Assembly (NCBI GenBank): GCA_963204975.1
Contig: CAUJJC010000351.1
Location: forward strand, 1-64,000
DNA from: Verrucomicrobiota bacterium
GTDB lineage: Bacteria; Verrucomicrobiota; Verrucomicrobiia; Verrucomicrobiales; Verrucomicrobiaceae
DNA length: 64,000 bases
Reading direction: 5' to 3'
Positions within the stretch are counted from its first letter, which is position 1. Every line of letters begins with the position of its first letter. Below are positions 2,225 to 35,366 of the stretch, in pieces. A program made the position numbers and the translations under genes. A model generated the notes under the pieces. That model was not told the origin of the DNA. It ran no database searches and saw only the letters and a program-made list of their open reading frames with translations.

Positions 2225-2227
2225 TGC

Positions 2228-3244
2228 TCAGTTGCCCGATTTCTCGACTGCTACCTTGAGCACCTGCCAGGCCTTCTCGGCGATGGCTTCCATCCTGGCA
2301 AGTTCGGGGTCCTGAGCCTCCAGCGCAGCTTTGAGAGATTCCGTGGTCACCTTGGTTGCAAAGGAGGCGATGCTCAGGTTCTCCTGCATCAAGCTTCTCC
2401 AGGTGATCGCGATCAGCTTCCGCTGATTGGCGGTGAGTTCGTAAAACAAGGTGTCCAGTGCGTCTTCGTAGGCCACCTGCGCCAGCCAAACCACGCCGAT
2501 CTTCAGCGCGGCATCCTGGAAGTTGCTCGACTTCATCCGCAACGCCAGAATCTCCGCCGCCATAGAGCCTGCCAATTGCAGCGCTGCTGCGGACTGTGCG
2601 CGTTCGCGCTCCTCGGGAGACATTTGGACGAGTTGCACCCAGCGCTTCGACACCGCCGCTGTGAAAGCAAACTCCGGCACCAACTCGTCACCGAGAGCGA
2701 ACATCGCACCAGCCAGAGCGAGCACGACGGGCTGGAGGTTTTGCTTCGAATACTCAGCCACCACTTTGTTGGTTGCCTCAATCTGTTCGCTCAAACCTTG
2801 CTTTGCCAACTGATGTTTCTTATCGGCCTGTGCGATGCCTTCCGCCGCTTGTTTCCGCAAATTCCCCGCGAGCACCAGATTGCGTTTGCCGAACACATTC
2901 ACCTTGGCGGCATGTTGCGCCTGGATTTCTTTGTTCTTCGCTTCCGCCTCGGCCGCTTTCACTCCCTGCTCGGACAGCCTCACCGCATTGGCGGCAGTGA
3001 AAAGATCTTTGATGACGGAGGCCAGCCGCTGAATCGCCACCTGTCCGTCACCAGCATTCGTAGCCGCCAGAGCATTCAGCTTGCCCACCACCGCCACCGC
3101 ATTGCCCAGGGTGGGCTCCTTCAGCGGAGCCAGGCACTCGACCACCACTGGTGCCGCCAACGGAGTTGAAGCCGTCTGAGCCGACAACACGCTCACAAGC
3201 AGCGAAAGCATCAGGGTCAGAGGCAGTGGAGAGAGCGTCTTCAT
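2228..3244 (-). CDS. Hypothetical exported protein, Ala/Lys-rich helical
   Basis: Long ORF with signal peptide MKTLSPLPLTLMLSLLVSVLSAQ. Confidence 0.65.
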   Translation of the reverse strand: MKTLSPLPLTLMLSLLVSVLSAQTASTPLAAPVVVECLAPLKEPTLGNAVAVVGKLNALAATNAGDGQVAIQRLASVIKDLFTAANAVRLSEQGVKAAEAEAKNKEIQAQHAAKVNVFGKRNLVLAGNLRKQAAEGIAQADKKHQLAKQGLSEQIEATNKVVAEYSKQNLQPVVLALAGAMFALGDELVPEFAFTAAVSKRWVQLVQMSPEERERAQSAAALQLAGSMAAEILALRMKSSNFQDAALKIGVVWLAQVAYEDALDTLFYELTANQRKLIAITWRSLMQENLSIASFATKVTTESLKAALEAQDPELARMEAIAEKAWQVLKVAVEKSGN

Positions 3245-3363
3245 GATTCGAGCGGCCCACCAATGAACCGCACATGCGCGAGGTCAAGCAGTGCAGTTCA
3301 ACCCCAAGGCATAAGAAATGACCAACCCCTGGCATTCATCACCAGCCCGAATCACCGCGCATC

Positions 3364-4422
3364 ATGAACACCAGCTCAACATCCGCTCTTCACACCGTCC
3401 TCGATTTGACCAAGCGTGCCACCGCCGCAGCCGTTCGCACCACGAAGCTGCACGTCATCCCTGCCATCGTCACCCACAGTCGCCATCTGGCCAAAGCGAG
3501 CCGGCACTTTGCTACGGTGACGCTGCCTCCCCACCTGGAGCGTGCCGCCCTTGCCTCCCAATCCGCCAGCCGTGAGGTGATTCGATTCAGCCAGGATCAG
3601 ATGTTGCCCACCCTGCGGCAAGCAGGCCACGCCACCCACAGATGGAGCCAATCGCCAACCCTGCGCATGTCGGCGCTAGCCCTCATCGCAGGCGGCGGCA
3701 TCGCGTTGGTTTGGAACGGCCAGCCTCCGGCTTCAGCCCCAGCACCGGGCGCGATGGTCGCCACCCATGCTGCAACGGCTACCCTTTCTGAACCCACGCC
3801 CAGCTCGAAGCCTGCGCTTTCAACGATCCCTGCCGTGCTCAAGACCAGCGCTCCTGCCAGAAAGAAAGAAGCTCGACCTTCCATGCCTCCCGCTGTGGCT
3901 CAATGGAAACGCGTGGAGGTCAAAGGCTACTCCGTTCCCGTGCCGGATGGATGGAACGCCGCTTCATCAAAGGAACTGCGCGCCTACAATGAATACCTCG
4001 CTGAGTGCATTCGGATGCAAGGTGGTCAGCACTTCGACATGGATGGCCGCATCGTTCAGAACGGCTCTCCACTGGGCGGCCTGTTAGGTGTGAACATTTG
4101 TGTGGTGCCTCGCGCCATCTTTGAACCTGAACTCGCCTCCGTTAGCTCGGCTCAAGAGCAGATCGTCCGTGAAGTGGATGATCTCCAGCCCTGGCTTCAC
4201 CACCTGAAGAGCGAAGGAAGTTATTACGACGCCAAGAACGATCTGCTCTTCAGCCAGACGACCAGCATCGGAGCCAATGGCCAGCGCATGGCCTACAACG
4301 GCATCGTTCTCTTCCGTGATGGACTGCAAGTGGAGATCCACGGCAACTGCTTGATCAATGACAAAGACAACATGGCCGCCCTCGTATCCCTGATCGCCAG
4401 TGGAGTTCGCAAAGCTGACTAA
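3364..4422 (+). CDS. Hypothetical membrane-anchored protein
   Basis: 352-aa ORF, internal hydrophobic segment (ALALIAGGGIALVW), Pro/Ala linker, globular C-terminal part. Confidence 0.65.
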   Translation: MNTSSTSALHTVLDLTKRATAAAVRTTKLHVIPAIVTHSRHLAKASRHFATVTLPPHLERAALASQSASREVIRFSQDQMLPTLRQAGHATHRWSQSPTLRMSALALIAGGGIALVWNGQPPASAPAPGAMVATHAATATLSEPTPSSKPALSTIPAVLKTSAPARKKEARPSMPPAVAQWKRVEVKGYSVPVPDGWNAASSKELRAYNEYLAECIRMQGGQHFDMDGRIVQNGSPLGGLLGVNICVVPRAIFEPELASVSSAQEQIVREVDDLQPWLHHLKSEGSYYDAKNDLLFSQTTSIGANGQRMAYNGIVLFRDGLQVEIHGNCLINDKDNMAALVSLIASGVRKAD

Positions 4423-4455
4423 CAATCCTCGCCCCCGAGCAGAGACTGATGCGTT

Positions 4456-5430
4456 TTACACGATCAACATGCAGTCGCCGTAACTGAAGAAGCGATACTT
4501 CTCCTTCACGGCTTCAGCGTAAGCCTCAAGAATCAGTTCCCGTCCTGCCAGCGCGCTCACCAGCATCATGAGACTGCTCTTGGGCAGGTGAAAATTCGTC
4601 ACCAAAGCATCCACGACTTTGAACTCGTAGCCGGGGTAGATGAAGATGTTCGTTTCGCCCTGGCTCGCTGTGACTTTTCCATGCTGCGTGGCTGAGGATT
4701 CCAGCGTGCGACACGCGGTGGTGCCCACGGCGATGACGCGTTCGGCTTTCTCCACTGCCGATGCGGATGCTTCTGGAATCATGTAGCGCTCGCTGTGCAT
4801 CTCGTGCTCCTCCACCGTCTCCGCCTTCACTGGCTGGAAGGTGCCCACACCCACATGCAATGTGACATAGGCGTGTGGCAGCTTGGAGATGAGTTCGGAT
4901 GTGAAGTGCAGGCCCGCAGTCGGCGCTGCGATCGATCCAGGATGCTGGGCAAAGACGGTTTGATAACGCTCGCGATCCTCGGGCCGGTCAAAGCGTTTCA
5001 TGTATGGCGGCAGTGCCAGATGGCCGTGCGTTTCTTCATCGACATCGCCCAGCCACTCGATGATACGCTCGCCATTCTCGTAGATCTCGATGACGCGTCC
5101 TGGCACGCCTCCGATCTTGTGACGGCTGCCCAGGAAGAACTTCTTCCCTGGCTTCACCATGCAGCGCCAATGCCGCGGCGTGATCTTCTCCAACTGCAAC
5201 ATCTCGCGTTTGCCCTCGTCATTGAAGAAGCGGGCGGGGATGACGCGCGTGTCGTTGAAAACAAAGAGATCGCCGGGCCGCTGATAGTCACGCAGCTCGC
5301 GGAACTGACGATGCTCGATCTTCCCCGAGTCACGATGAACCACCATCAGGCGCGAGGCGGCACGATCAGGCAGAGGGTCCGAAGCGATCAGCTCGGGAGG
5401 CAGGATGTAGTCGAAATCTGAAGTGAGCAT
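4456..5430 (-). CDS. queA: S-adenosylmethionine:tRNA ribosyltransferase-isomerase
   Basis: LPPELIASDPLPDRAASRLMVV, FNDTRVIPARF, PTAGLHFTSEL, NFHLPKSSLMMLVSA. Confidence 0.96.
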   Translation of the reverse strand: MLTSDFDYILPPELIASDPLPDRAASRLMVVHRDSGKIEHRQFRELRDYQRPGDLFVFNDTRVIPARFFNDEGKREMLQLEKITPRHWRCMVKPGKKFFLGSRHKIGGVPGRVIEIYENGERIIEWLGDVDEETHGHLALPPYMKRFDRPEDRERYQTVFAQHPGSIAAPTAGLHFTSELISKLPHAYVTLHVGVGTFQPVKAETVEEHEMHSERYMIPEASASAVEKAERVIAVGTTACRTLESSATQHGKVTASQGETNIFIYPGYEFKVVDALVTNFHLPKSSLMMLVSALAGRELILEAYAEAVKEKYRFFSYGDCMLIV

Positions 5431-5433
5431 CGG

Positions 5434-6210
5434 CTAGATCGTCATCGACGAGTAACCTCCGTCCACCACCATCTCGTGTCCGGTGATGAAGGAACCGGCG
5501 GCATTGCTGGCGAGGAGGAGCGCTGCACCGATGAGTTCCTTCGCTTCGCCAAAACGAGCCGCCGGAGTGTGACCCATGATCTTGGAGACACGATCAGGCG
5601 TGAGCACTTTCTTGTTCTGCTCGGCGGGGAAGAAGCCAGGAACCAAGGTGTTCACGCGGATGCCCAACGGTGCCCATTCACGAGCGAGATTCTTCGAGAG
5701 GTTGTGCACCGCCGCCTTGCTCATCGAGTAGGTAAAGACACGGCTAAGTGGGAGAAGGCCCGACATGCTGCCCAGGTTGATAATCGAGGCCGGGACCTTG
5801 TTATCAACGAAGTATCGACCGAACACCTGGCACGCAAGCACCACGGCCTTCGTGTTGATGTTCATGATCCGGTCATACTCCTCTTCGGGAATGTCGAGGA
5901 AGGGCGTGGGCGAGTTCACACCTGCGCCATTGACCAGGATGTTCACGCCCTTGGAGCGCTCCAGCACGGTATCGAGCACGAGCTGAAGGTCGCCGCGCTT
6001 CGAAGCATCGGCTGCCACGAAGTATCCACGCCCACCATGGGCGCAGATGGATTCCAGGCGCTTCTCGGCCTTCGCGGGATCGCGGCCAACGAGGACGACT
6101 TCCGCATTCGCTGCGGCATAGCCCTCGGCGATCGCGCCACAGAGTTCGCCTGTGCCACCGATCACAACGGCGGTCTGGTCAGAGAGATCAAAGAGTTCGA
6201 TGGGAGACAT
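5434..6210 (-). CDS. SDR family oxidoreductase (mannonate/gluconate dehydrogenase-like)
   Basis: [15 protein letters not shown] Rossmann motif, NGAG, YSMSK active site, VDGGYS C-terminus. Confidence 0.9.
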
Positions 6211-6281
6211 GGTGGAAACTGATTCTTGGGGACTGGATAATACGTCGGCCAGCCTTTTTCAGGCAGCCGTTGAGAGGGCGG

Positions 6282-7682
6282 TTATTCGACGAGACCGGTT
6301 GCTGGTTCAACTCTCATCTGCGACGACCTTGAGCGCCACGCCGCCAGGAGGAATACCGCCGATGCGATCATCGTGCCCCAGGGCAGCAGCCACCCGTAGC
6401 GGGTGTAAAAGGTGAGCGTTGTCTCCCGCCCGACCTTGCCGGTCATCACATCTGCGATCATCGGTGCCATCGTGGTCACTTGCCTGCCGTGCGGGTCAAT
6501 GATCTGTGTGATGCCCGAGGTCGTGGCCACCACCATCCATCGGCCATTCTCCGCCGCTCGAACCCTCATCAACTGCGCGTGCTGGAGATGCTGGTTCAGC
6601 GTCCAGGACGCCACATCCATGCTCGGCACCGCGAAGAACTCCGCGCCTGCGAGCGTCATCTTGCGGACGACGTCTTGATAGTCGCAGTCAAAACAGATGG
6701 GCGTGCCCACCTTGCCCAGCGGCGTGGTCACCGGCAGCGTCGTCGTGCCCGGCGTGCCATCGTTGAAGAAGTGGACGGGATGGTTCTTCACATGCGTGCC
6801 CAGCTTGCCGCTCGCGTCGAGCGTGAGGGCCGTATTGAACCACTCCTTCCCCTGCCCTCGCTGCTGCGTGCCGAGCACAAGCACACTGCCGGTGTCCTTC
6901 GCAATCGCTTGCAGCCGTGGCCAGCCTTCCTCGGACTTCATCACATCAAAGGGAAGAGCCTGCTCTGGCCAGAGCACGAGGTCCGTCTTTTCCATCAAGA
7001 CTCTTGTCTTCGACTCGAACCAATCGAAGCTGGAGGCCTCGCTCTGTAGGGCCGCCACGGAGATGGTCGGAGCTGATGGTGGCGGCAACTCGTTGGGCAC
7101 CAGCAGCACCGCGAAGATCGCCACCATGACAGGCCAGGCTCCTCGTCCTTGAGCCGCCGTGCTCGCTGCGATGATCATGAAAAAACTCACGCCATAGATG
7201 CCCACGAGACTCAGCATCTCTGCGCTATTCACCGTGTCCATCGCATGTCCCGGCGTGATCCAGGGAAAGCTGAGCGGGAGCAGTTCACAACGCACAAACT
7301 CGATGGTGGTCCACAACGATGCTGTGGCTACCACCTTGATCGCCGGATGCCACTGCCGCTGCTGAAACTCTGCACTGCCCCACGCGAACAGCATGAGGTC
7401 CAGCGCCAGAAATCCCCACAAGGCCAGCGCGAGCGGACCAAACATCGTCCACAGCCAGGAAACCGCGCTGCCATAGGCCACGACGCCGAAAAGAAATCCA
7501 GCACGCCGCGCATTGTCGGGAGCCAGGTTTTTGAGCACGATCATCAAGCCCAGCAAGGCGATGAAGGCCCACGGACGAAATCCCACCGGAGGGAAAGCAC
7601 GCGCAAACAGCCAGCCGAGAAACACCGGGGCAACCACCACCTGAAGCCAGAGGATCGCCTTGCTTGAGCGCGAGTTGTTCAT
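6282..7682 (-). CDS. lnt: Apolipoprotein N-acyltransferase-like protein
   Basis: Multiple N-terminal TM segments followed by CN-hydrolase domain (LWPEQALPF, ICFDCDYQDVVRKM). Confidence 0.8.
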   Translation of the reverse strand: MNNSRSSKAILWLQVVVAPVFLGWLFARAFPPVGFRPWAFIALLGLMIVLKNLAPDNARRAGFLFGVVAYGSAVSWLWTMFGPLALALWGFLALDLMLFAWGSAEFQQRQWHPAIKVVATASLWTTIEFVRCELLPLSFPWITPGHAMDTVNSAEMLSLVGIYGVSFFMIIAASTAAQGRGAWPVMVAIFAVLLVPNELPPPSAPTISVAALQSEASSFDWFESKTRVLMEKTDLVLWPEQALPFDVMKSEEGWPRLQAIAKDTGSVLVLGTQQRGQGKEWFNTALTLDASGKLGTHVKNHPVHFFNDGTPGTTTLPVTTPLGKVGTPICFDCDYQDVVRKMTLAGAEFFAVPSMDVASWTLNQHLQHAQLMRVRAAENGRWMVVATTSGITQIIDPHGRQVTTMAPMIADVMTGKVGRETTLTFYTRYGWLLPWGTMIASAVFLLAAWRSRSSQMRVEPATGLVE

Positions 7683-7723
7683 TGCCTCACTGCACCAGAT
7701 GGTTCATCACTTGCCAAGCACAC

Positions 7724-8431
7724 ATGCGGGACATCTACATCTTTCTCGCCGGTCTCATCTGCGGCATGGGCATCATCCTTGTCTGGAAAGGATTGCGCCT
7801 CCTCGCCGACATCAAAGCCGCAGGCAAGGCCACCGAGGATGCTCTGCGTGCCTTGCACGGCACGGCCAAGGACGAAGAGGCCCAGGCCACGGTGCTCGAG
7901 TGCAAGAACCGCCTGCGCTGGACTCGTCAGGTAAACCCCGAGTGGATCGGCCCACTTGTGCAGGAAGTTCCGCGACTCGTTCGCGAAATCGCAGCCGTGT
8001 ATTTTCCTGCCGAGCACAATCCGCTGCTCGCTCCCGGCTTGAGCCACTTCACCCGAGCTGTCCACTTGGCCGCTCTCGATGTGGCCACCTTCCTCCAGAC
8101 TCGCACCATCGGACGCCTCGTCGATGTCAGTGCCAACACCGCCCTGCAGGCCATCAGCAAGGGCAAGAAGATCGTCGAGAGCGAGCACTTCCAGTATGCC
8201 ACCAAGTGGTATAAACGCCTGCTCCCGGTCTGGCAGGTGCTGCGATTCAAGTCGCCTGTCATGTGGGCAGGCCTCGCCGTGTCCAATGTAGCGGTCCGCG
8301 CCCTTCAGCCCGCCGTCATCGACATTGTCGCCCGCCGTGCCATCGAACTCTACAGCGGACGCCTCGCCGCCGGCCAAGAATTGCCCGCCCTGGCCAGCGA
8401 ATCATCGCAGTCCGTAGACACATCGGCCTGA
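7724..8431 (+). CDS. Hypothetical membrane protein
   Basis: ORF from MRDIYIFLAGLICGMGIILVWKG; N-terminal TM helix. Confidence 0.6.
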   Translation: MRDIYIFLAGLICGMGIILVWKGLRLLADIKAAGKATEDALRALHGTAKDEEAQATVLECKNRLRWTRQVNPEWIGPLVQEVPRLVREIAAVYFPAEHNPLLAPGLSHFTRAVHLAALDVATFLQTRTIGRLVDVSANTALQAISKGKKIVESEHFQYATKWYKRLLPVWQVLRFKSPVMWAGLAVSNVAVRALQPAVIDIVARRAIELYSGRLAAGQELPALASESSQSVDTSA

Positions 8432-8493
8432 AGCGAATCACCGCATTTGGTGATGAGAGCCCGCTCATGAACCGCGTAAAGGCGTGATCACTC

Positions 8494-9429
8494 ATGAACT
8501 CATCACCGCACTCCCCTGCTCTGTTCCGTCGTGACTTCCTGCGCGGCATGACAGTATCCACTCTGATCACCGCAGCCTCTGCGCGCGCTGCCTCAAGCCT
8601 TCATATCTCCACTAACACCTACCCCTGGGGCACCTTTGCGAGGCGTGAGAACAAACCTTTCAAACTGCACTCCGACGAAGCCCTCGCAGCGATCGCTGCC
8701 TGCGGAATCAATGGCTACGAGCCTTCCGTTTCCAAGCCCGAGGAGTTCGATGGACTCGGCGATCGCCTTCGGAAGCACGGCCTGGAGATGCGGTCGATCT
8801 ATGTCGGCAGCACCCTCCACGACGAGGCCCAGGTAGCGCAGAACATCGAGCAAATCCTCGCCATCGGAAAACACGCAGCCGAGCTGGGCACTCGCATCAT
8901 CGTGACCAATCCGTCGCCTATCAAATGGGGCGGCAGCCAAACAAAGTCCGACGAGCAACTCGCCACCCAGGCCAAGGCCTTGGACACACTCGGCACCAAG
9001 CTCCGCACCCTCGGCATCACGCTGGCTTATCACAACCACGACATCGAACTGCGCGACAACGGTCGTGAGTATCATCACATGCTGAGCAAGACGAACCCGG
9101 ATGCTGTGAAGTTCTGCCTGGATGTTCACTGGGTGTATCGCGGCAGCGGCAACTCCCAGCCAGCCGTCTTCGATACCCTGGAGCGCTACGGCTCCCGCAT
9201 CGTCGAACTCCACATCCGTCAATCGCACGACAAGGTCTGGCGTGAAGACTTCGTGGCCCAGGACGACCTCGACTACGTTCAGCTCGCCTCGTGGTTGGGC
9301 CGTCACACGATCAAGCCGCACCTCGTGCTCGAGCAATGCGTGGAGGCCAAGTCGCCTAACACCATGACGGGTGACAAAGCGCACACGCTGAGCACGACTG
9401 CTGTTCGCCAAGTCTTCGCCAGCTTGTAA
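8494..9429 (+). CDS. Tat-exported sugar phosphate isomerase/epimerase-like TIM barrel
   Basis: Signal RRDFLRGMTVSTLITAASARA; YHNHDIELRD, CLDVHWVYRG, ELHIRQS. Confidence 0.85.
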   Translation: MNSSPHSPALFRRDFLRGMTVSTLITAASARAASSLHISTNTYPWGTFARRENKPFKLHSDEALAAIAACGINGYEPSVSKPEEFDGLGDRLRKHGLEMRSIYVGSTLHDEAQVAQNIEQILAIGKHAAELGTRIIVTNPSPIKWGGSQTKSDEQLATQAKALDTLGTKLRTLGITLAYHNHDIELRDNGREYHHMLSKTNPDAVKFCLDVHWVYRGSGNSQPAVFDTLERYGSRIVELHIRQSHDKVWREDFVAQDDLDYVQLASWLGRHTIKPHLVLEQCVEAKSPNTMTGDKAHTLSTTAVRQVFASL

Positions 9430-9503
9430 TTCTCACCGACAGACACCTGCTCAGCGGCAATTCCAAATCCAAGCGAAGCAACCAACTATCCCCCGCCCTT
9501 GCC

Positions 9504-11129
9504 ATGAACTCCAGCATCGTCTCGCGCCGCCATTTTCTCCTCAGCACAGGAGCCGCTGCCTTGCTGCCGCGCACTTGGGTCCGGGCCGACATTCGATCAT
9601 CAAACCCCAATGGCTACGTCGTTGGTGAAGCCATCGTCGAACACATCGGGGCCAGGATTCTAGCCGAAGGCGGCAATGCTGTAGATGCCCTGATCGCCAC
9701 AGCCCTCGCAGGTGCCATCACTCAGCCGCACCAGACTGGCATCGGTGGGTATGCCACGCATGGCATGTTTGCGATGAATGGCGGCAAGCGCATCGCCGCA
9801 CTCGATGGCAACACGATAGCTCCTGCAGCCTTCACCCCGGACATCTTCAAACCTGACGCCAAAGGCAAGGTGCCTGGTGCCAAGAACGAGCACGGATGGC
9901 TCGCCGCAGGCGTTCCTGGAGTCATCGCCGGGCTCAAGCTCGCCTTGGACACCTTTGGCACCATGCCCTTCAGCGAAGTGCTCGCCCCAGCGATCAAACT
10001 CTGTCGCGAGGGTGTGCCCGTCACCCAAGCCCTCGCCTCGGCCTTGGCGCGAGCCGCAGTCTTTAAACACGACCCCGGCTCTGCCAAGCTCTACCTCCCT
10101 GGTGGCTCCGTGCCCAAGATCGGCGAACTCTGGAAGAACCCCGATCTCGCCGAGGTGCTCACCACCTTGGCCAAGGCCAACTCCATCGAGCCCTTCTATC
10201 GTGGCGACATCGCGCAACGAATCGCCGAGGGTTTCGCCAAGAATGGAGGCATGGTCACCGCCAAAGACCTCGCCGCGTATCAGGCCCGCATCGTGGAGCC
10301 CATCACGATCACCCTCGGCGAGCGCACCATCCACACGCCACCCCTGACGTGCGGCGGTTTCACAGTCATTCAAATGCTGAGCATTCTGAAGGCGATGAAG
10401 TGGGACACCATTCCCGATGGCAGGCGTCGCCTTTATGCTCGCGTCGAAGCCATGCGCCTCGCTTGGCGCGACCGCCTTTCCTTGCTCGGCGATCCTGCGT
10501 TCGTTCAAGTGCCACAAGAACGGCTCCTGTCCCACGACTACGCAGCGGAATGCGCCGAAAAGATTCTCACCATCGTCAAAGAGGGCCGCATCCTGGACCC
10601 CGAGTTCACCACCAGCACGCAAGGGGGCACCCTGAGCTTCAGTGCCTGCGACAAGGACGGCAATGTGGCCGCCCTGACACTCACACACGGCAACGGCTAC
10701 GGAGCGCACGTCACCGTCGAAGGGCTGGGCCTCACGCTCGGTCATGGCATGTCGCGCTTTGATCCACGTCCTGACCATCCCAATGCACCAGCGGCTAGCA
10801 AGAAACCACTGCACAACATGGTTCCCGTGGTCATCACGGAAGCTGGTCAGCCAGTCGTCGCTATCGGTGGTCGCGGTGGACGACGCATCCCCAATGCCAT
10901 GCTGGAGTTTCTCACTCAATTCGTGCTCAGAAACCGCCCCTTCTCGGAATCTCTCGCCTCACCACGACTGCACACCGAGGGCTCTAAGGTCATCGAGTTT
11001 CAAAAGGCCTGGCCCAAGCCTAGCATCGACGTGCTGAAGACGGCAGGCTACACCGTGAAAGTCGGCGGCAGCGCCACGCTCAGTGGTGTCGGTTTGGAAA
11101 AGGGCCAATGGTCCGCAGGAATGAAGTAG
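9504..11129 (+). CDS. Gamma-glutamyltransferase family protein
   Basis: EGGNAVDALIATALAGAITQPHQTGIGG; GGTLSFSACDKDGNVAALTLT processing-site-like motif. Confidence 0.9.
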   Translation: MNSSIVSRRHFLLSTGAAALLPRTWVRADIRSSNPNGYVVGEAIVEHIGARILAEGGNAVDALIATALAGAITQPHQTGIGGYATHGMFAMNGGKRIAALDGNTIAPAAFTPDIFKPDAKGKVPGAKNEHGWLAAGVPGVIAGLKLALDTFGTMPFSEVLAPAIKLCREGVPVTQALASALARAAVFKHDPGSAKLYLPGGSVPKIGELWKNPDLAEVLTTLAKANSIEPFYRGDIAQRIAEGFAKNGGMVTAKDLAAYQARIVEPITITLGERTIHTPPLTCGGFTVIQMLSILKAMKWDTIPDGRRRLYARVEAMRLAWRDRLSLLGDPAFVQVPQERLLSHDYAAECAEKILTIVKEGRILDPEFTTSTQGGTLSFSACDKDGNVAALTLTHGNGYGAHVTVEGLGLTLGHGMSRFDPRPDHPNAPAASKKPLHNMVPVVITEAGQPVVAIGGRGGRRIPNAMLEFLTQFVLRNRPFSESLASPRLHTEGSKVIEFQKAWPKPSIDVLKTAGYTVKVGGSATLSGVGLEKGQWSAGMK

Positions 11130-11135
11130 GATGCT

Positions 11136-11903
11136 TCACTTCTCCAGTGCCCACGTCACTCCATTGACCAAAAGCCGCCGCACGTCCGCGATCTGCATGT
11201 CCTGAGGCGCACCGAGACTGGTGTAAAAGACACGCGCCTTGTTCGTGCCATAAGTGCGTGTCCACGCGACTGGCTGCGGCGGCGTGATGGCACCGGGCTG
11301 CGGAGTGCCGATGAGCAAAGGCGTCGCATTGTCCGCGAGCGGCAGCACCTTGTAGAGCGAGAGATGTCCGAAGATGTTGGCGGCGTTCACACCGGCGAGC
11401 AGCGCGCTGCTCTCAGCTCCTTTCGCCACACTCACGCGGTAGGGCAAACCTTTGGTTTCATAGCCCGTGTTCTCGCCACCGAGAACATCATGCGTGAACT
11501 CCGGCCACGGGGCGAGGCTGGGATCAACGAGGTCCTTGGGTTTCGGAAGGAAGGCATGGTTGGCCGTGCGAATGCCGACCAGCGGTTTTCCAGCCTCCAG
11601 GTGCGCACGAATCGCGGCCATCTGCTCCTTCGGAGGAAAGCGACGACGCGAGAATAGCACCAACACATCCGCATCCTTCATCGCCTCAATGAGCCCCTCG
11701 AAGTGATGCTTCTCCGGCTTGTCGCCTTCGATGATCGTCACACGATGTCCCGCCGGTTTGAGTTCCTTGTCAGCGAAGTCGCGCATTGAGGTCGGCGCTT
11801 CATAGTTATCTGGCTCTTCGACAACCATGATCACAATGTTCGCGGCGGGCACCCAGTCTGTGAACAAAAACACAATGGCGAAGACGGCGATAAGACACTT
11901 CAT
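11136..11903 (-). CDS. ThuA domain-containing protein
   Basis: DADVLVLFSRRRFPPKEQMAAIRAHLEAGKPLVGIRTANHAF; WTRTYGTNKARVFYTSLGAPQDM. Confidence 0.88.
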   Translation of the reverse strand: MKCLIAVFAIVFLFTDWVPAANIVIMVVEEPDNYEAPTSMRDFADKELKPAGHRVTIIEGDKPEKHHFEGLIEAMKDADVLVLFSRRRFPPKEQMAAIRAHLEAGKPLVGIRTANHAFLPKPKDLVDPSLAPWPEFTHDVLGGENTGYETKGLPYRVSVAKGAESSALLAGVNAANIFGHLSLYKVLPLADNATPLLIGTPQPGAITPPQPVAWTRTYGTNKARVFYTSLGAPQDMQIADVRRLLVNGVTWALEK

Positions 11904-12073
11904 ACTGATGACCGATTACGCATTCAGGCCGCCAGTTCTTTGGCATTGCGACGCCGTTGTCTTTCAAAGCGACATCACTTCACTCGCTCCAGCATCTCCG
12001 GCATGGGGCGACGCAAGGTGCGGCGGCAGAGCGACGAGGACGAGCAGGACAGGCGTTTCATCAGAGTGAGTAG

Positions 12074-22550: not shown

Positions 22551-22605
22551 TGCGTAGGGTTCTAACGGCGGTTTGACAGCAAAAGGGCGTGAAGCACCTT
22601 CGACC

Positions 22606-22848
22606 ATGCAAATCACTCTCGATCTACCTGATGATGTTTTTGCCCAAGCGGAAGCGATGGCACGCAGGGAATCGCGCAGTCTTCCCAGCGTGGTGCTCGA
22701 TCTCATCCGGGGTGCAAGGAAGATGCCTCAGACTGACCCCATTCCCGCTGAAAGTGGCAAGGCGTGGAGGCTGCCGGTCGTCGCAGGATCACGGCCCTTC
22801 ACCGTGGAGGAAATCGACAGGATGCTGGAGGAGGATGGTCTTCCATGA
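22606..22848 (+). CDS. Ribbon-helix-helix-like antitoxin (VapB-like)
   Basis: MQITLDLPDDVFAQAEAMARRESRSLPSVVLDLIRGAR; stop overlaps next start (ATGA). Confidence 0.75.
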   Translation: MQITLDLPDDVFAQAEAMARRESRSLPSVVLDLIRGARKMPQTDPIPAESGKAWRLPVVAGSRPFTVEEIDRMLEEDGLP

Positions 22849-23270
22849 GCTGGTTGCTTGATGGCAACTTGATCGTCGCGCTTCTCATTGATGCCCACCC
22901 AAATCATCACCGTGCAAGGGCTTGGTTCAGCTCGATCACGGACGAGGTGGTGACCTGTTCGGTCACTGAAGGAACTTACCTTCGTCTTCACATGCGGATG
23001 GCGGCTGATCGCAGCGCTGCCTCAGCCTGGCAAGTTCTCGCCCAGTTTCAGAGCAATCCGATGCACCGCTTCATCGACGACGGCTTCACCTACGCCGAGG
23101 TCTCATCTCAAAAACTGCAAGGCCACAAGCAAGTGACCGATGCATGGCTGGCCCAGTTAGCTCGTCGTCATGGTAGTCGTCTCGCCACCTTGGACGCCGG
23201 ATTGGTCTCGGAGCATGTGGACGTTGGATTCTTGATTCCAGAGTTACCGCTTGCCACGGCCCAGCCGTAA
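22845..23270 (+). CDS. PIN-domain toxin (VapC-like)
   Basis: MSWLLDGNLIVALL, CSVTEGTYLRL, QVTDAWLAQLARRHGSRLATLDAGL: PIN acidic residue pattern. Confidence 0.85.
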   Translation: MSWLLDGNLIVALLIDAHPNHHRARAWFSSITDEVVTCSVTEGTYLRLHMRMAADRSAASAWQVLAQFQSNPMHRFIDDGFTYAEVSSQKLQGHKQVTDAWLAQLARRHGSRLATLDAGLVSEHVDVGFLIPELPLATAQP

Positions 23271-27372: not shown

Positions 27373-27996
27373 TTAAGTATCGAGTGGAAGCTCGTCCCAT
27401 TGGTCGCCACAAAGCAACCAATCCAACGAACGCCGCCTTTCTTCAATTACATAAGACTGCACGCGTCCTGGTAACTTGGTATTGGTCAGTTGTGCCTGAT
27501 GAATCGCCCAATGCAGGCAATAAACAAGGTCAGCTGCTACAACAACTTCCTCACTCGCTCTGAGCTTGGCACGTTGGCGCAGAGACGAACTGCCTTCGCT
27601 CGCTTTGAGGTTTGGCAGCATTACCGCAAAGCGGTTGTCACAGTCTTTCCCAAAGTCGATTTGCGGAACCAACCCAAGGGTCCACGCAAAAGCCCACATG
27701 CCTTCGATTTGAACTTTGAAGCGGTTGGAGTCGCCTATGCCTTGCGTGACGAACTGATGCTCGGAAGGCGCAAGGGCTTTGACCGCATCTTCCTGTTGGA
27801 GCCACGCCCACGCTTTGCCCTTGTCAAAGCCATACGCGCAAGCAGCAGCAGCATGAAGGCATAGAAGACGCTTCACTATCTCGTCCAATGTTCTCGTGAT
27901 TGTTACCCCATCCAGCAGAGGAAGTTTGTCGTTCACACTGAAGCCAAGACGGGCGGCAGTTTTTAGCGATTGCTTGCGAATGATTTCAAGGTCCAT
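27373..27996 (-). CDS. DUF4272-like protein, candidate immunity protein for the RHS toxin
   Basis: C-terminal VIEERRRSLDWLLCGDQWDELPLDT resembles DUF4272; ATG at 27996 lies inside the last codons of the RHS gene (11-nt overlap). Confidence 0.7.
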   Translation of the reverse strand: MDLEIIRKQSLKTAARLGFSVNDKLPLLDGVTITRTLDEIVKRLLCLHAAAACAYGFDKGKAWAWLQQEDAVKALAPSEHQFVTQGIGDSNRFKVQIEGMWAFAWTLGLVPQIDFGKDCDNRFAVMLPNLKASEGSSSLRQRAKLRASEEVVVAADLVYCLHWAIHQAQLTNTKLPGRVQSYVIEERRRSLDWLLCGDQWDELPLDT

Positions 27997-30900
27997 AGAA
28001 GGTTCCAAAGCCACCAATGCCGTTCGGTCCAGGATGCAACACGGGTTGGAGAGCAGGGTTTGTGTGTTCGCCTACACGAAGCAAGCGCATGACGTTCGGT
28101 GTTTCAATCGGGTGATGCCAAACAGTTCCCGGAGGATTTAGCAAACTCTTTCCAGACCGCATGTGCTGAAGCACATTTGTTCCAAGCTCTTGATTCATCA
28201 TCCCGGCCAGCCCGGCATCGTTGCCCATCTGGTTGGCAAGAAAGCGATTGGCTGACGCACGATGCGCACCACGAGTTGTTCCGGTGATCGGAGCCTCAAA
28301 TATAGTTTCGTAAACATTCAGATTCCGAGGCGCTCCCGTCCTTACAGCAGCCGCCGCCCCCCGTGCGACGGCGGTGGTGGTGCGGGCGGGGAGGGAGGCA
28401 CCGGCGAGGGCGAGATCGGCGGCGATGGATGCGCCCTCGGCCATGTGGCCACGCAAGCTCCCGTAGTAGCGGGCACCCGAGATGTCTTCCGCACTGCGGG
28501 AGCTGCTCTCCGAGGGCATGATCTGCGTGTGGCTGCGCTCGAAGGTCGGCAGCTCCACATGGCCTCCGGCGGGGGACTTGGGGAGCAGCGTGGTCCAGTC
28601 GTAGAGGGCAAAGTTGTCCGCGCACAGACCGCTGGCGTCCAGCAGGGAGATGGGGCTGCCGTTGGCAAAAGCGAACAGGTTGAGCCCGCCATCAAACCCA
28701 ATCGGGTCCTCGCTCACGAACCTCGCCAGCCAGGGGTGGTAGTAGCGGGCGCGCATGTGGATGAGGCCGGTTTCCTCGTCCCACATGACGCCGTAGGCTC
28801 CGTTGAACTGGAACGGCGTATCCGTATCCCCGCTGCGCTGGGCGATCAGCCCATAGGGCGTGTAGTCCAGCCGTCCCGTCACTGCCCCGGTGCCATCGCT
28901 CAGCGCGAGCACGCTGCCCACCTGATCCGTGTGGTAGTAGCGCAGGGTGCCATCGCTGCGCTCCTCATAGAGCAGCCCGGCGGGGCCGCCCCAGACATAC
29001 CAGCGGGTGCTGCCGCCGGGGCGATGCTCCACCGTGACCTCGCTCAAGCCACTGAGGCCGTGCGGGTTATGCACGTAGCGCGTGGTGCCTGCGCTGCTCG
29101 TCTTGGTGAGGCGGCGGCCTTCCGCATCATAGGTGAAGCTCACGGTGCCGCTGGGGCTGAGGGTGAGACTGGTGAGGCGGTTGCGCTGGTCCCAGGTGGC
29201 ATTGCTCAGGCTGGGATGCACCAGCTTGATGCCGGGACTGGCCTGGGGCAGGCTGATGCCGTAGGGCTGAGTGCTCACGGCGGGCACGACGGGAATGGCC
29301 AGCAAATTGCCATCCGCATCATGGCTGTAGCCGCTGATCCAATTTTCGGCGGTGTAAGTAAGGTTGGGCACAGGAGCCGTCGCTCCAGGGGGGATGGGCA
29401 CGACGAACCGTTTGTCGATACGACCGGCGACATCCAGGCCCAGGCGCACGAGAGTAATGAGGTGGCCATCGGCCTTGCGTTCCTCAGCGCGGATGAACCG
29501 CCCGGCGGCGTCATAGAACAGCTTGCGGGTGGTGCCGTTGGGGCGGGTCACCTGGGTGAGGCGGCTGGCGGCGTCCCAGCTCAGGGTGGTGGTGCGGGCG
29601 GCCCAGTCCGTGACGGTGCTGAGGCGGTCACGGCTGTCATAGGTGTAGTCCAGGATCTTGCCATCGGGCAGGGTGAGGCGGGTGAGGTTGCCATTGGCGT
29701 CGTAGCGGTAGAGGAAGGTTTCATTCAGCGCGTTGGTGAAGGTGGCGACGGCGTTGCGGCGATCATAGGTGCGGGTGAGCACGGCACTGCCTTCGGTGAG
29801 CGTGAGCAGGTTGCCATTGCCATCAAAGGTGGAGGCCAGACTGCCCACGGGTGTGGTGGCACTGCTGGTGGCGTAGAACTCCACGCCCTTCACACGGTCG
29901 CGGCTGTCGTAGAGCAGTTTGGTCCATTGCCCGCTCGGCTCGTTGCGGCGCAGGATGCGCCCCTGGCTGTCGTAGGTCCAGGAGGTGCTTCGGGAGGTGG
30001 GGCTGGTCAGGCCATTGGCACGACCGTAGTTGTCATAGGTGTAGGTCCAGGAGGTGCCAGTGCGGTTCTTCAGCGTGAGGGGCCGCCCTTCGTTATCGTA
30101 GCTGTGCTCTACGAAGAAGCCGTCAGGTTGTGTGGTCTTCCAGACCTCGTTTCGATTGGTGTAATCGGTATGCGTGGTGAAGTTGAGTGGATTCTTCACG
30201 TCCGTGATCCTGCCATCGTCATCGAACGTGGTTTCCACGGTATGGAATAGAGCGTTTCGCACTTTCCAGGGCCTTCCTAAAGCATCAAGCTCGCGGGTGA
30301 TAACGATACCGGTCGGGTCAGTCGTATCCGTGGGGCGATCAGCCAGATCGTAATCCGTCACCTGGGCGGGATTGCCGGGGTCTGGAAAGAGTGTTTTCCA
30401 GGGCTTGCTCAGCCGGGTGTAACGGAAGGTAGTGGTATGATTGCGAGCAGTGGTAGTGGTCTCCAGATCACGGTTGTCATTGTAGGTATGATGGATGTTG
30501 GCGTCAGGATCGCCAGGCATGCTGCCTGGGTGAAAGGTATCGACAAGCTGACGACGCAGGTTGTGGTCATACGTGGTGATGTTCCCACGCGAATCCTCAA
30601 CAGAGGTGAGATCCCCCCGTGTATTGTAGAGAAAGGTAACTGTTCCGGCATCTGCACCAGTGCCCGTGGTAATTTTCCAAGGCCGGTCATAGCTGTCGTA
30701 AACACTGACTGACTTGAGCGTGCCCGCCACGCTGACAGTATGCACTCCCCCTGCTCCAGGGCTGCTGGCTGGCACATAAGTATAGGTGGTGATCACGCCA
30801 GAGGGGGCTGTCACCGTCTGGGGCTGGTGCTGCGCATTGTAATCGCTGTAAAGCGTCGTTTTGAAATTGCGGTCAGTCTCCGAGACCAAGTGGTTTTGGC

Positions 30901-33900
30901 CGTCGTAGGCGCAGCTCGACCCATGATTAAGGGCATCATAAACGGTGACCGGATTGTGCGATCCGTCGAAAAACGCGATCTTCTTATTTCCCAAAGGAGT
31001 GGTGGCTTGCGCAATGTGATCCTGTCCATCGTGCAGATAGCTGGTGCGGTTCCCCAGTGCGTCCACTGTGGCTGTCTTCCGGCGGCGCTGATCGAAAATG
31101 TGAGTGGTGCGTTCGCCCAGAGGATTCACCTCCACGGTCTGGCCGGGCGCATAGTAGTAGCGCCACACGCGGGCGGCATCGCCCTGGCTGATCTGGGCCG
31201 TCACACGGTCCTGGCTGTCAAATTCGCTGTTCTGCACCAGGAACTCTCCTGCATGATTCTTCATCCCTGTGAGCCGCCGCTGTGCATCATATTCGAAAGT
31301 GGTCGTTTTGCCCTCCACATCCGTGCTGGATTGCAGCGATCCATCCACCTGAACGAGGAAAGATACGGAGCGCCCCGTGCTGTCACTGACGCCAGTCATT
31401 CGCCCGGAAATGGGGCTGTATGCCAGCGTGAGGCTGCGTCCATAGCAGTCCGCCACACTCTCGACTCGCTTCTTCGTCGCATTCCATACGAAGGTGGCCT
31501 CCCTGCCCCATTGATCGGTTACTTTCGCCAGGGTGCCGTCGATATTGTAGGTCCATGTATTGCCGTGGCGTTCCTGGACGATGAACTGGCCAGTGCCGTT
31601 TTTCGTCAGCGTCGCCGTAACGCCCGGAGGCGACAGGTAAGTGCCATCCGGGAGACGCTGAAACTCCAGCACCCGGTCTGCGAGGTTGACGACTGCACTG
31701 TTGTTGTAGAGCCGGTCGGCCACCCACTTGGCCGCAAGCATGGCCGCAACCCAGTTGCGCGGCGTGGTGCCCCGGTTCTTGAACACGTCCCATGTGGCAT
31801 AGATGCCCATGATCGCCGCCGCCGCGTGCTGCGCACTGCTGCCGCCCAGGGCACCCTCAATATCAGAACGCTCCGTGGCAGTGAAATGAAGACTGTGATT
31901 CCAGCCGTAGCCCAGGCCCGAGGGATTGATCTGTCGCTTGCCTCCATGGTAGTGCCTGCCGAAAGAGATGCCACGCGGCAACGATCCATCTCCCAACGTC
32001 AGATCGATTTCATCGTAGGTGAACTGACCGCTGCCCATGTCCACGGGATCACCGCCAGTGTGCAAAGCCTGTGTCACTGGCGCATAATTCATGCGGCCCG
32101 ATGATTGAAGGAACTGGTCATAGGCTTGATAGGCGTTCATCGGAGCGCTTGTGCCTGAATAGCCGCCAAAGTATCCCCCAGTGATCTTCATCCCCACATT
32201 CAATCCCCCTGTAGTGGTTGGCTTCCAGGTCATGTAGCCTGCGCCCTGCCAGGAACCAATCGTGATCAGCCCGTCTCCAGGCACTAGAGCGAAGCCGGTC
32301 GTAGAGGTGACCGCACTCTCAATGGCGGCAATATCTGCCGCCTGATAGTGTGTCAGCGCCCCATAAACGGAAGTCAGCCAGTTGGTATTCGTGGCCAGAT
32401 AGGTGGTGCCATTGGCCAGATTCCCCGCTGCTGTGAGGGAGGCGGTGCTCGCCGCAGACTGCCCGCCCTGCTGTTGCGCAATGACACCGTGCTCCATGGC
32501 ACTGCCAATCATGGCCAGCGTGCCCAGCCAGGTATCCGTATCCGCCGCTGTCACCGCTGTGGTCCGGCCAGAAGCAGTCGTAAACTGAAGCGGAAAGTCC
32601 ACATAGTAACCCCCTTCACCAGTGGTCGTATTATACTCATCTGCCATGAAGCCCAGGCGGTGGTGGTAAAACCCGGCAATGCCAGCCATATCCGCCAGCA
32701 ACTTTCCGGCGCTCTGAGTTTGATGCATCCAGGCATAACCGACCACCGCCTGTGCCTCGGCCTTCAACCTGGGCGAGATCGCCGGATTGCTAAGCGCCAG
32801 TGTTTCCTGCTTTTCCTGATGTCTTCTCAAGGCAGCCTGAGAGCCATCCATGCCATACACCACAGCCCGGATACCCACTCTCGGCACCGTCTGCACAGGG
32901 CCGGTTTGATCACCAAACGTGCCGCCGGCATGGTCGATGCTGAACACCACGTCAATACTCGCCGGATTGGGCGCAATCGCTTCCTGAGCGATCACGCTTT
33001 CATCCAGCCATAGCTTGCTCAGCGCCCCCATCTCCATCCACAACGTCTTCCCCTGCAACTCCGCCAGCCTCAGGCTCACATTGATAGACCCCGCCTGCAC
33101 CTGCATTGTGCTAAACAACGTGGAAGGCAGAGCGTCATATACCGGCAAGGGCGCAGGCGATTGGGTGGTGTCCACCGACAGCGGGAAATATACGGACGCT
33201 CCGCTGCCTGCTTCTGCCCCAGCCACAGGGACCAGACCGCCCGTGATGTCTGTGGGGTTCGCATTCGGCATGTTGGACCGGATGTAACTGAGAAGAGCGT
33301 TCGTGCGTCCGCTCAATTCCGTTCCCAACCCGGCTTCGTTCATATTCCTTACCGAGTGGGGAGTGGAAACCGATCCTGCTGACGCCGCACTCAGCAGCAC
33401 AGATCGGGAGTATTGTGCCGCTGTAACCATATTGACCGCTGGTGTCCGGTTGTAAGTCTTGAAGGAGGCATCAAACCAGATCGCATTGCCGCCGCTGGTC
33501 AGTTGCACCTGCACCCACCAGTGCCTCCATGCATACGCCACCAGCGTGCCGCCTGTGGTGAAACCTTTCACGACATCAGCAACGGGCGTCCCATGCTCTG
33601 TGAGCACCGAATCCACCAGAGACGCCACCGGATCGACACCAAGCCAGTGATTGATGTCCTTGCCCGTGCTCGTGTCGTTGAATGGAACGCTCACAAACCC
33701 TTGCACATATTTCGCTGTGCTGACCGTTGGGCACAACCGCAGCAAGGCCACCAGTAACGCAGCCGTATCCGCATCATTGCCACTGCGTTCCAACAAAGTC
33801 GCCGCAGCCCCCTTTCGAATGCCGTAGTAGTGGGAAAACGCGATATTGTCCCGCACCCAGAAGAACAAAGCATAGGGATCATATCCCAGACCAAGCGCGA

Positions 33901-34180
33901 GTTCCTGAAGTTCGGGCGTCACCTCGTCTGCTGCGTTACCTACCGATAAAGTCGATGCTGCTGCCGCCGCCCCGGCCTCGCTTTCGCCAGTCACTGTTGC
34001 CAGCGGCGCGGCACCATCAAGCATCACAAAAGTATCCTCTGTTAGAATCGTCGATGGCAACACTGGATCAGCAGCAGGATTCAGCACGATCCATCCAGGC
34101 TCTTCCTGAGCCATCAGCGAGGAACAAATAAAAGCCGTTACGGCCAGCATCAAAGGCAATGGCAGGGTCTTCATAATCAA
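27986..34180 (-). CDS. Exported RHS/YD-repeat polymorphic toxin with N-terminal transglutaminase-like region and C-terminal WHH-type nuclease-like tip
   Basis: Signal peptide; many YDxxGRL-type repeats; RARYYHPWLARFVSEDPIGFDGGLNLFAFANGSPISLLDASGL core end; variable C-terminus with GTVWHHPIETPNVMRLLRVGEHTNPALQPVLHPG. Confidence 0.92.
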   Translation of the reverse strand: MIMKTLPLPLMLAVTAFICSSLMAQEEPGWIVLNPAADPVLPSTILTEDTFVMLDGAAPLATVTGESEAGAAAAASTLSVGNAADEVTPELQELALGLGYDPYALFFWVRDNIAFSHYYGIRKGAAATLLERSGNDADTAALLVALLRLCPTVSTAKYVQGFVSVPFNDTSTGKDINHWLGVDPVASLVDSVLTEHGTPVADVVKGFTTGGTLVAYAWRHWWVQVQLTSGGNAIWFDASFKTYNRTPAVNMVTAAQYSRSVLLSAASAGSVSTPHSVRNMNEAGLGTELSGRTNALLSYIRSNMPNANPTDITGGLVPVAGAEAGSGASVYFPLSVDTTQSPAPLPVYDALPSTLFSTMQVQAGSINVSLRLAELQGKTLWMEMGALSKLWLDESVIAQEAIAPNPASIDVVFSIDHAGGTFGDQTGPVQTVPRVGIRAVVYGMDGSQAALRRHQEKQETLALSNPAISPRLKAEAQAVVGYAWMHQTQSAGKLLADMAGIAGFYHHRLGFMADEYNTTTGEGGYYVDFPLQFTTASGRTTAVTAADTDTWLGTLAMIGSAMEHGVIAQQQGGQSAASTASLTAAGNLANGTTYLATNTNWLTSVYGALTHYQAADIAAIESAVTSTTGFALVPGDGLITIGSWQGAGYMTWKPTTTGGLNVGMKITGGYFGGYSGTSAPMNAYQAYDQFLQSSGRMNYAPVTQALHTGGDPVDMGSGQFTYDEIDLTLGDGSLPRGISFGRHYHGGKRQINPSGLGYGWNHSLHFTATERSDIEGALGGSSAQHAAAAIMGIYATWDVFKNRGTTPRNWVAAMLAAKWVADRLYNNSAVVNLADRVLEFQRLPDGTYLSPPGVTATLTKNGTGQFIVQERHGNTWTYNIDGTLAKVTDQWGREATFVWNATKKRVESVADCYGRSLTLAYSPISGRMTGVSDSTGRSVSFLVQVDGSLQSSTDVEGKTTTFEYDAQRRLTGMKNHAGEFLVQNSEFDSQDRVTAQISQGDAARVWRYYYAPGQTVEVNPLGERTTHIFDQRRRKTATVDALGNRTSYLHDGQDHIAQATTPLGNKKIAFFDGSHNPVTVYDALNHGSSCAYDGQNHLVSETDRNFKTTLYSDYNAQHQPQTVTAPSGVITTYTYVPASSPGAGGVHTVSVAGTLKSVSVYDSYDRPWKITTGTGADAGTVTFLYNTRGDLTSVEDSRGNITTYDHNLRRQLVDTFHPGSMPGDPDANIHHTYNDNRDLETTTTARNHTTTFRYTRLSKPWKTLFPDPGNPAQVTDYDLADRPTDTTDPTGIVITRELDALGRPWKVRNALFHTVETTFDDDGRITDVKNPLNFTTHTDYTNRNEVWKTTQPDGFFVEHSYDNEGRPLTLKNRTGTSWTYTYDNYGRANGLTSPTSRSTSWTYDSQGRILRRNEPSGQWTKLLYDSRDRVKGVEFYATSSATTPVGSLASTFDGNGNLLTLTEGSAVLTRTYDRRNAVATFTNALNETFLYRYDANGNLTRLTLPDGKILDYTYDSRDRLSTVTDWAARTTTLSWDAASRLTQVTRPNGTTRKLFYDAAGRFIRAEERKADGHLITLVRLGLDVAGRIDKRFVVPIPPGATAPVPNLTYTAENWISGYSHDADGNLLAIPVVPAVSTQPYGISLPQASPGIKLVHPSLSNATWDQRNRLTSLTLSPSGTVSFTYDAEGRRLTKTSSAGTTRYVHNPHGLSGLSEVTVEHRPGGSTRWYVWGGPAGLLYEERSDGTLRYYHTDQVGSVLALSDGTGAVTGRLDYTPYGLIAQRSGDTDTPFQFNGAYGVMWDEETGLIHMRARYYHPWLARFVSEDPIGFDGGLNLFAFANGSPISLLDASGLCADNFALYDWTTLLPKSPAGGHVELPTFERSHTQIMPSESSSRSAEDISGARYYGSLRGHMAEGASIAADLALAGASLPARTTTAVARGAAAAVRTGAPRNLNVYETIFEAPITGTTRGAHRASANRFLANQMGNDAGLAGMMNQELGTNVLQHMRSGKSLLNPPGTVWHHPIETPNVMRLLRVGEHTNPALQPVLHPGPNGIGGFGTFYGP

Positions 34181-35163
34181 GGATTGGTGAGGAGGTTGCC
34201 TTCACGGTCATACGTGAAGCTAGTGGTAGGGCTGCTCATTTTGGTCACATGCCGCAGCCGGTTGATCGTATCGTAAGTCATCTGCGTCGCCTTCGCGGTG
34301 AAGTCATTGGAGCGCGGATCAAAATTGAAATCGTATTCATCCAGGTTGTTGAGCGAGTCCGCATCCCCGTCCGCCGTCGCATCGGCGGCGCTCATCGCAT
34401 TGAGCCGATACATCGCCTCCCAGCCATCGGGCAGCCCATCCCCATCCGTGTCTGCCAGCAGCGGGTTGGTGCCAAACACGTTCACCTCATACCAATCCAG
34501 CAGCCCGTCCCCATCCGTGTCCAGTCCGCCACCGTTGGTCTGCTGCAATCCCACCCGGAAGAACATCCGGTCCGCCGTGCCGGTGGCGATGGTGATGGCT
34601 TTCAGGCTGCCATCGCCCCACACCTGCTGATCGTTGGTCCACGTCACAAGGTCCGCGCTGCGCTCGATGAGATAGCTCATCCCGGCCACGCTGCGGAAGC
34701 TCAGCGTGAAAGAGCCGGGGCCGCTCGCCGTCGTGGGCGTGTTGCTCATGTAAGCCCAGGGCTCATCGACCACCCAGGGGTTGGTCCCCGTCACGGATTC
34801 CTCCAGATTGGTGCGGTTGTCGCCATCGGGATCGCCCAAGGTCGTCAGCATGCCGCCGCTGCTGTGCTGGGCGAACCACGCATCATCAAGCTGATCGCCG
34901 TTCGCGTCGCCAATGACCACCATGCCCCAGCCGATATGCGGATGCGCGCTGTCGGTGGGATCGCTCCAGTTGAGGCTCTCCACCAAATTCGGGCGACCAT
35001 CACCATCAGGATCAGCGCTGCCAGTGAAGGCGGCGATGTTGTAAGCGGTCTGCCAGGCATCATCCAGGCCATCGTGGTCAGCATCTGTGGCCTGCGCCAC
35101 GCCAGCCAAGAGCATCACCGCCAGCACAGCGGTCGCGGTTCGGGGATTCAACGGTGAGTTCAT
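34177..35163 (-). CDS. Exported thrombospondin type 3 repeat (Ca-binding-like) protein with C-terminal YD-repeat tail
   Basis: DTDGDGLLDWYEVNVFGTNPLLADTDGDGLPDGWEAMY; ends MTYDTINRLRHVTKMSSPTTSFTYDREGNLLTNP; stop overlaps RHS start (ATGA). Confidence 0.85.
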   Translation of the reverse strand: MNSPLNPRTATAVLAVMLLAGVAQATDADHDGLDDAWQTAYNIAAFTGSADPDGDGRPNLVESLNWSDPTDSAHPHIGWGMVVIGDANGDQLDDAWFAQHSSGGMLTTLGDPDGDNRTNLEESVTGTNPWVVDEPWAYMSNTPTTASGPGSFTLSFRSVAGMSYLIERSADLVTWTNDQQVWGDGSLKAITIATGTADRMFFRVGLQQTNGGGLDTDGDGLLDWYEVNVFGTNPLLADTDGDGLPDGWEAMYRLNAMSAADATADGDADSLNNLDEYDFNFDPRSNDFTAKATQMTYDTINRLRHVTKMSSPTTSFTYDREGNLLTNP

Positions 35164-35204
35164 AAGTTCACAGGGGTTCGGTTCTCGGTTCTCGGTTCTC
35201 AGTT

Positions 35205-35366
35205 TCAGCTTTCTTGTTTCCGCTTTTCTTGCCGTCTCTTCTCCGCCTTGGACATCAGCGCCAGAGCGAGCAAAGAGGCGGCCTCCAAAGGAGTGACGGG
35301 CCGGGACGGCGAAGGCACCACCGAGAGCACGGGTGGTTTCGTGAGTGAGTGACAACGGGCGTTCAT
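35205..35366 (-). CDS. Candidate 53-aa small protein upstream of the TSP3/RHS operon
   Basis: ATG at 35366: MNARCHSLTKPPVLSVVPSPSRPVTPLEAASLLALALMSKAEKRRQEKRKQES*; below the ORF-track size cutoff. Confidence 0.45.
   Translation of the reverse strand: MNARCHSLTKPPVLSVVPSPSRPVTPLEAASLLALALMSKAEKRRQEKRKQES

Follow-up and report, generated by a model that had tools for sequence, protein, structure and literature searches.

Organization of the RHS locus

The window, a 64,000-nt stretch of a Verrucomicrobiota bacterium contig (GCA_963204975.1, CAUJJC010000351.1, positions 1 to 64,000), carries a long RHS gene followed directly by a gene of the DUF4272 family (Table 1). The RHS product is intact over its 2064 aa, and its C-terminus reads ...GTVWHHPIETPNVMRLLRVGEHTNPALQPVLHPGPNGIGGFGTFYGP*, with the asterisk marking the stop codon. 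Searches against Pfam and NCBIfam matched the protein to PF05593 (8.6e-48, 10 repeats), PF20148 (2.6e-7) and TIGR03696 (2.3e-21), and to PF01841 at 2.8e-4, under the curated cut-off. A Sec-like signal sequence was called by eye, and neither Pfam nor NCBIfam revealed a PAAR domain anywhere in the 2064-aa protein. Since no PAAR domain was found and the N-terminus bears a Sec-like signal, type VI delivery of the RHS protein is unsupported.

Table 1. Features of the RHS locus and neighbouring genes, in positions of the window.
Feature	Positions	Strand	Remarks
RHS ORF	27986-34180	minus	open for 2064 codons
RHS protein without linker and tip	28651-34180	minus	Sec-type signal sequence, transglutaminase-like region, DUF6531, RHS/YD repeats, C-terminal end of Rhs_assc_core
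Linker from RHS core to nuclease tip	28337-28650	minus	~100 aa, GC 70%
Predicted WHH-type HNH/EndoVII nuclease tip	27986-28336	minus	~115 aa plus stop
Overlap of toxin stop and immunity start	27986-27996	minus	11 nt, atggaccttga
DUF4272 gene, candidate cognate immunity protein	27373-27996	minus	207 aa, ATG at 27996, stop ending at 27373
Gene immediately upstream of the RHS gene	34177-35355	minus	4-nt overlap with the RHS gene
Small gene, then PIN-domain protein	22573-23270	plus	likely VapBC-type pair

Beyond the end of the RHS core (DPIGFDGG...DASGL) lie about 215 aa, made up of the linker and the nuclease domain. An earlier reading of the sequence (the original prediction) had described some 220 aa of unrelated residues at this place as the toxin tip; the unrelated region is there, and the toxin domain occupies its last ~115 aa and not the whole. 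The start codon that the same reading placed inside the last RHS codons, with an 11-nt overlap, was borne out exactly, and the gene that it opens, called DUF4272-like at the time, is a true DUF4272 (PF14094; E 9.2e-39, 133 bits against a cut-off of 27, profile positions 1-207 of 208). The GC content of the RHS core is 60%, that of the tip 53% and that of the DUF4272 gene 52%. The tip and the DUF4272 gene, unlike the RHS gene, therefore make up one compositional block, although unrelated DNA outside the block likewise has a GC content of ~51%.

The gene upstream of the RHS gene encodes bacterial TSP3 repeats and an RHS-repeat fragment, and is probably part of the RHS operon. Elsewhere in the window, the PIN-domain protein (PF01850, 2.3e-10) and the small gene before it likely constitute a toxin-antitoxin pair. 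Four more Rhs-associated core domains were found on other contigs of the same genome (C356, C215, C22 and C45; loci L057-L060), and their C-terminal ends differ, as would be expected of a repertoire of polymorphic toxins.

Assignment of the tip to the WHH nucleases

The window tip alone had no Pfam match at E<=1, PF14414 (WHH) included, and none in NCBIfam. Its close relatives matched PF14414 at E 0.02-0.09. Homologues 31-37% identical to the window tip reached E values from 2.1e-9 (best) to 4e-8 for the same family and of 2.6e-9 at best for PF12639 (Colicin-DNase), and among the five distant ones scanned three passed the PF14414 cut-off. With tblastn (to 1e-5), homologues were found as the terminal part of RHS proteins encoded by Enterobacter and Burkholderia glumae plasmids, and also on a Variovorax plasmid, and one verrucomicrobial genome, G226, has a tip homologue. 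Compared with three relatives in HHalign, the window tip scored a probability of 98% (E 1.8e-13, 103 columns). The catalytic-type residues are all retained in the relatives, with W72-H73-H74, H90 and H100 of the tip conserved, and in the alignments the whole WHH motif and two additional histidines are invariant in ten tips. An AlphaFold2 model calculated from the ten-sequence alignment (pLDDT 88.8, pTM 0.82) has two strands and a helix around the WHH motif (E71-74, E82-87, H88-92), the arrangement expected of the HNH/EndoVII superfamily. Foldseek returned no significant match for this model, so the assigned fold is a prediction from sequence. Taken together, these comparisons support a predicted WHH-type nuclease of the HNH/EndoVII superfamily, similar to colicin DNases. 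The W-H-H signature that had suggested this class is thus upheld by the families of the homologues, and the profile check proposed for the last 220 residues, blank for the tip itself, succeeds through the same homologues.

The PDB entries 8h8a and 8bd1, which we take to be RhsP (their PDB names give Rhs only), aligned with the tip over the WHH core at E 0.2-0.8, so that only the motif region is held in common. A match to PDB 7obi, a designed TPR protein (6e-4), was rejected, as it adds up from four repeat matches to a helix, each of them weak and by itself not significant. No tip homologue was found in a phage collection, no relative was confirmed among the viral contigs scanned, and PADLOC gave no defence-system match for either the tip or the DUF4272 protein.

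Pairing of close tip relatives with DUF4272

In a scan covering ~85,000 species genomes, nine relatives of the tip were found, four of them close (63-77% identity) and five distant (31-37%). A DUF4272 gene lies directly downstream of the tip in every close relative (4/4, or 5/5 with the window), and it is the single DUF4272 in each of the four relatives' genomes. The RHS gene and tip are intact in a Flavobacteriales MAG (L044), where stop and start overlap as TGATG. The tip gene is broken in the other three, a MAG (L043), Sphingosinicella terrae (L045) and a MAG labelled 'Akkermansia' (L046), and hence in 3/5 loci; of the four relatives, all except S. terrae come from MAG contigs. The 11-nt overlap of the window recurs in L045 and L046 (3/5 loci). 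Since the tip-DUF4272 arrangement is repeated in unrelated genomes, the pairing goes beyond chance.

At L043 (positions 1758-2711 of that locus), an in-frame TGA lies inside the tip and a one-base indel merges the tip frame with that of DUF4272. A tip-DUF4272 fusion protein was considered and rejected, as a one-base indel on a contig of ~1.4x coverage explains the merged frames; with coverage this low, the break represents either decay or sequencing error.

Displacement of the tip was seen at two loci. At L046 (1500-3742), an LHH tip (PF14411) now forms the end of the RHS gene, which is followed by a gene identified by eye as SUKH-like; right behind the latter stands a fragment of the WHH tip, which still overlaps a DUF4272 gene that is intact save for one TAG near its end. 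In S. terrae just the end of the tip is left, with an intact DUF4272 gene and no RHS upstream. Such remnants are those expected of an antidote that outlasts a replaced toxin.

The DUF4272 subfamily linked to the tip

The DUF4272 proteins linked to tips are 41-50% identical to that of the window, whereas six others taken for comparison, that of genome G330 (see below) among them, reach 19-29%. The A5 profile scored the tip-linked five, the same proteins from which it was built, at 337-367 bits, and the G330 protein at 70 bits. By these measures the tip-linked proteins are a separate, diverged subfamily. The AlphaFold2 model of the window DUF4272 is all-alpha (pLDDT 88.8, pTM 0.87), and Foldseek found nothing significant for it.

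Among other DUF4272 loci inspected, from plasmids and from Verrucomicrobiota, Sphingomonadales and Bacteroidota, the great majority lack a toxin tip upstream; one (L007) offered too short an upstream stretch for a decision, and another (L030) was without annotation. Co-occurrence of DUF4272 and RHS genes was accordingly rejected as a family-wide rule; the genome-wide co-occurrence that the original prediction proposed as a check holds in every case found for the tip-linked subfamily and fails for most DUF4272 genes. As most of these genes stand alone, immunity would be the role of particular lineages and not of the entire family, and caution is needed before labelling every DUF4272 an immunity gene, the tip-linked cases being one diverged subfamily and one lone example. 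On plasmid pPP2 of Persicobacter psychrovividus (L032, 172-8516), several genes of the DUF4272 family run along one strand together with a DUF4279 gene and small hypothetical ones, in a pattern that resembles a poly-immunity array.

An independent DUF4272 cassette

The lone example is in G330, a genome that belongs to the same taxonomic order as that of the window but to a different family. A protein matched by the A1 tip profile (2.5e-8) is followed by a DUF4272 gene that starts 5 nt after the stop of the WHH-like tip gene. The pair lies in a cassette array on a non-RHS chassis (L061, G330:C1:6398000-6410000, positions 1364-12001). In the first cassette a 1448-aa chassis ends in a NucA-type Endonuclea_NS_2 tip (PF13930) and is followed by Imm52 (PF15579); the second carries the WHH-like tip and DUF4272 on a chassis repeat that is 97% identical at the DNA level; a third chassis repeat runs on, the repeats being 97% and 95% identical. 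DUF4272 therefore takes the slot that Imm52 holds in the adjoining cassette. The G330 tip is highly diverged, with the motif W-D-H and an unsure placement in the tree, and its DUF4272 falls outside the window's subfamily. Pfam gave no match for the chassis, which may represent a new carrier of polymorphic toxins.

Distant WHH relatives and DUF7716

A small DUF7716-like gene lies downstream of the tip in 9/9 distant relatives, five from the genome scan and four found earlier. Seven of the nine have a DUF7716 Pfam match at E<0.02, and BLAST aligns the remaining pair, L047 and L048, with these seven at ~4e-13 or better. Counted by tip group, DUF4272 and DUF7716 divide 5/0 versus 0/9 (p = 5e-4, a guide only, as the sequences are related). 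The tips linked to DUF4272 group on one long branch of a small tree, with support of 91/99, slightly under the threshold of the tool. Because the close tips are accompanied by DUF4272 and all nine distant ones by DUF7716-like genes, a switch of partner is indicated, and the WHH subclade of the window is, as judged from sequence, guarded by the diverged DUF4272 subfamily. In Sorangium cellulosum (L049, 3001-5008), a second WHH-like tip fragment stands directly behind the first tip and its DUF7716-like gene, in an orphan cassette arrangement.

Discussion

We consider it highly probable that the locus encodes a polymorphic toxin and its immunity gene, that is, an RHS-delivered WHH nuclease together with a DUF4272 protein that blocks the nuclease in the producer. 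Of the characteristics of such systems, a gene in the immunity position directly 3′ of the tip, conserved pairing, joint movement and tip displacement were found. The tip and DUF4272 have spread between bacteria as one cassette, and since the two genes travel together in several bacteria that are only distantly related, we regard DUF4272 as very probably the antidote of the tip. The proposal of an immunity factor in the original prediction is thus favoured by a pairing that is complete in the tip subclade, kept after displacement and repeated beside Imm52 in G330.

For the delivery route, nuclease activity, target and inhibition through direct binding, we infer the following sequence of events. 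The RHS shell would be exported and its C-terminal ~115-aa WHH nuclease delivered; the tip, predicted to be metal-dependent, would cleave the nucleic acid of neighbouring cells, most likely their DNA. DUF4272, translationally coupled to the toxin, would be made alongside it in the producer and would block the nuclease, most likely bound over the active site. AlphaFold 3 puts the DUF7716 partner of a Salmonella WHH nuclease over the metal site (PMC13224477), and by analogy with this placement the all-helical DUF4272 probably blocks the same site.

The family's wide distribution, mostly as standalone genes, would suit a DUF4272 that is merely a chance neighbour or a housekeeping gene near the RHS end, the true immunity gene being another or absent. 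Against this stand the 5/5 pairing across phyla with its conserved overlap, the survival of the pairing after tip displacement, the independent cassette beside Imm52 and the distinctness of the tip-linked subfamily, so that this reading is close to refuted and retains very little probability. We attach just as little to an accessory function (chaperone, activator or second effector) with no inhibitory role. Chaperone-like partners of RHS effectors exist, and an all-alpha helical model would be compatible with one; adaptors, however, normally lie upstream of the toxin, whereas DUF4272 lies 3′ of the tip and in G330 occupies the Imm52 slot. It is also retained with a broken tip, both in L045 and, with its one TAG, in L046, and a DUF4272 that outlasts the toxin fits immunity, not activation.

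A different target is improbable too, if less so: the tip could be a WHH-fold cutter of RNA (tRNA or rRNA) with DUF4272 still its immunity protein, given that PF12639 spans both DNase and tRNase colicins. The HNH/WHH motif is, however, typical of DNases. The WHH relative paired with DUF7716 likewise degrades DNA (PMC13224477).

Within the preferred reading of DUF4272 as the antidote of a WHH nuclease, its history can be proposed with moderate confidence. DUF4272 would be a reservoir recruited at least twice as immunity against WHH-type tips, one subfamily now being fixed as a cross-phylum cassette with its own WHH subclade, in which it replaced, or was replaced by, DUF7716. Related tips with two immunity families, DUF7716 and DUF4272, would amount to a natural experiment in the change of partner between toxin and antidote.

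Comparison with known systems

The window gene has the full-length domain match of the DUF4272 family (PF14094); most members found of that family differ from it in standing alone, with the toxin absent. RhsP of Vibrio parahaemolyticus (PDB 8h8a, 8bd1) resembles the window protein in being an RHS effector whose tip is of the WHH nuclease type, and the match between them is weak. Closer in layout is RhsA-HNHc of Salmonella Tennessee (OD436_002541/002540), a WHH RHS nuclease with a DUF7716 partner that was toxic, rescued by its partner and DNA-degrading at the bench (PMC13224477). Like the window locus, it has a WHH-motif HNH tip, a small downstream gene in the same slot and an RHS-type chassis (PMC13224477). 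The two differ in immunity protein, DUF7716 being ~100 aa in length and the window DUF4272 ~207 aa, all-alpha and of another family, and in delivery, which in Salmonella is by T6SS (PMC13224477), whereas the window protein starts with a Sec-like signal and yielded no PAAR match. The Tox-WHH toxins of Zhang et al. 2012 share with the window an HNH/EndoVII assignment, the conserved WHH and downstream histidine, and the RHS chassis; their listed partners are Imm-SUKH, Imm28 and Imm37, and DUF4272 is not among them (PMC3482391). A search of the open-access literature, outside which most subscription papers lie, gave no mention of DUF4272 or PF14094. The toxin class is therefore a known one, the immunity role of DUF4272 is one for which we found no published description, and a partner switch is visible. 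The pairing would add a further immunity family to those of the WHH nucleases and offers a first testable function for DUF4272, a widespread domain of unknown function.
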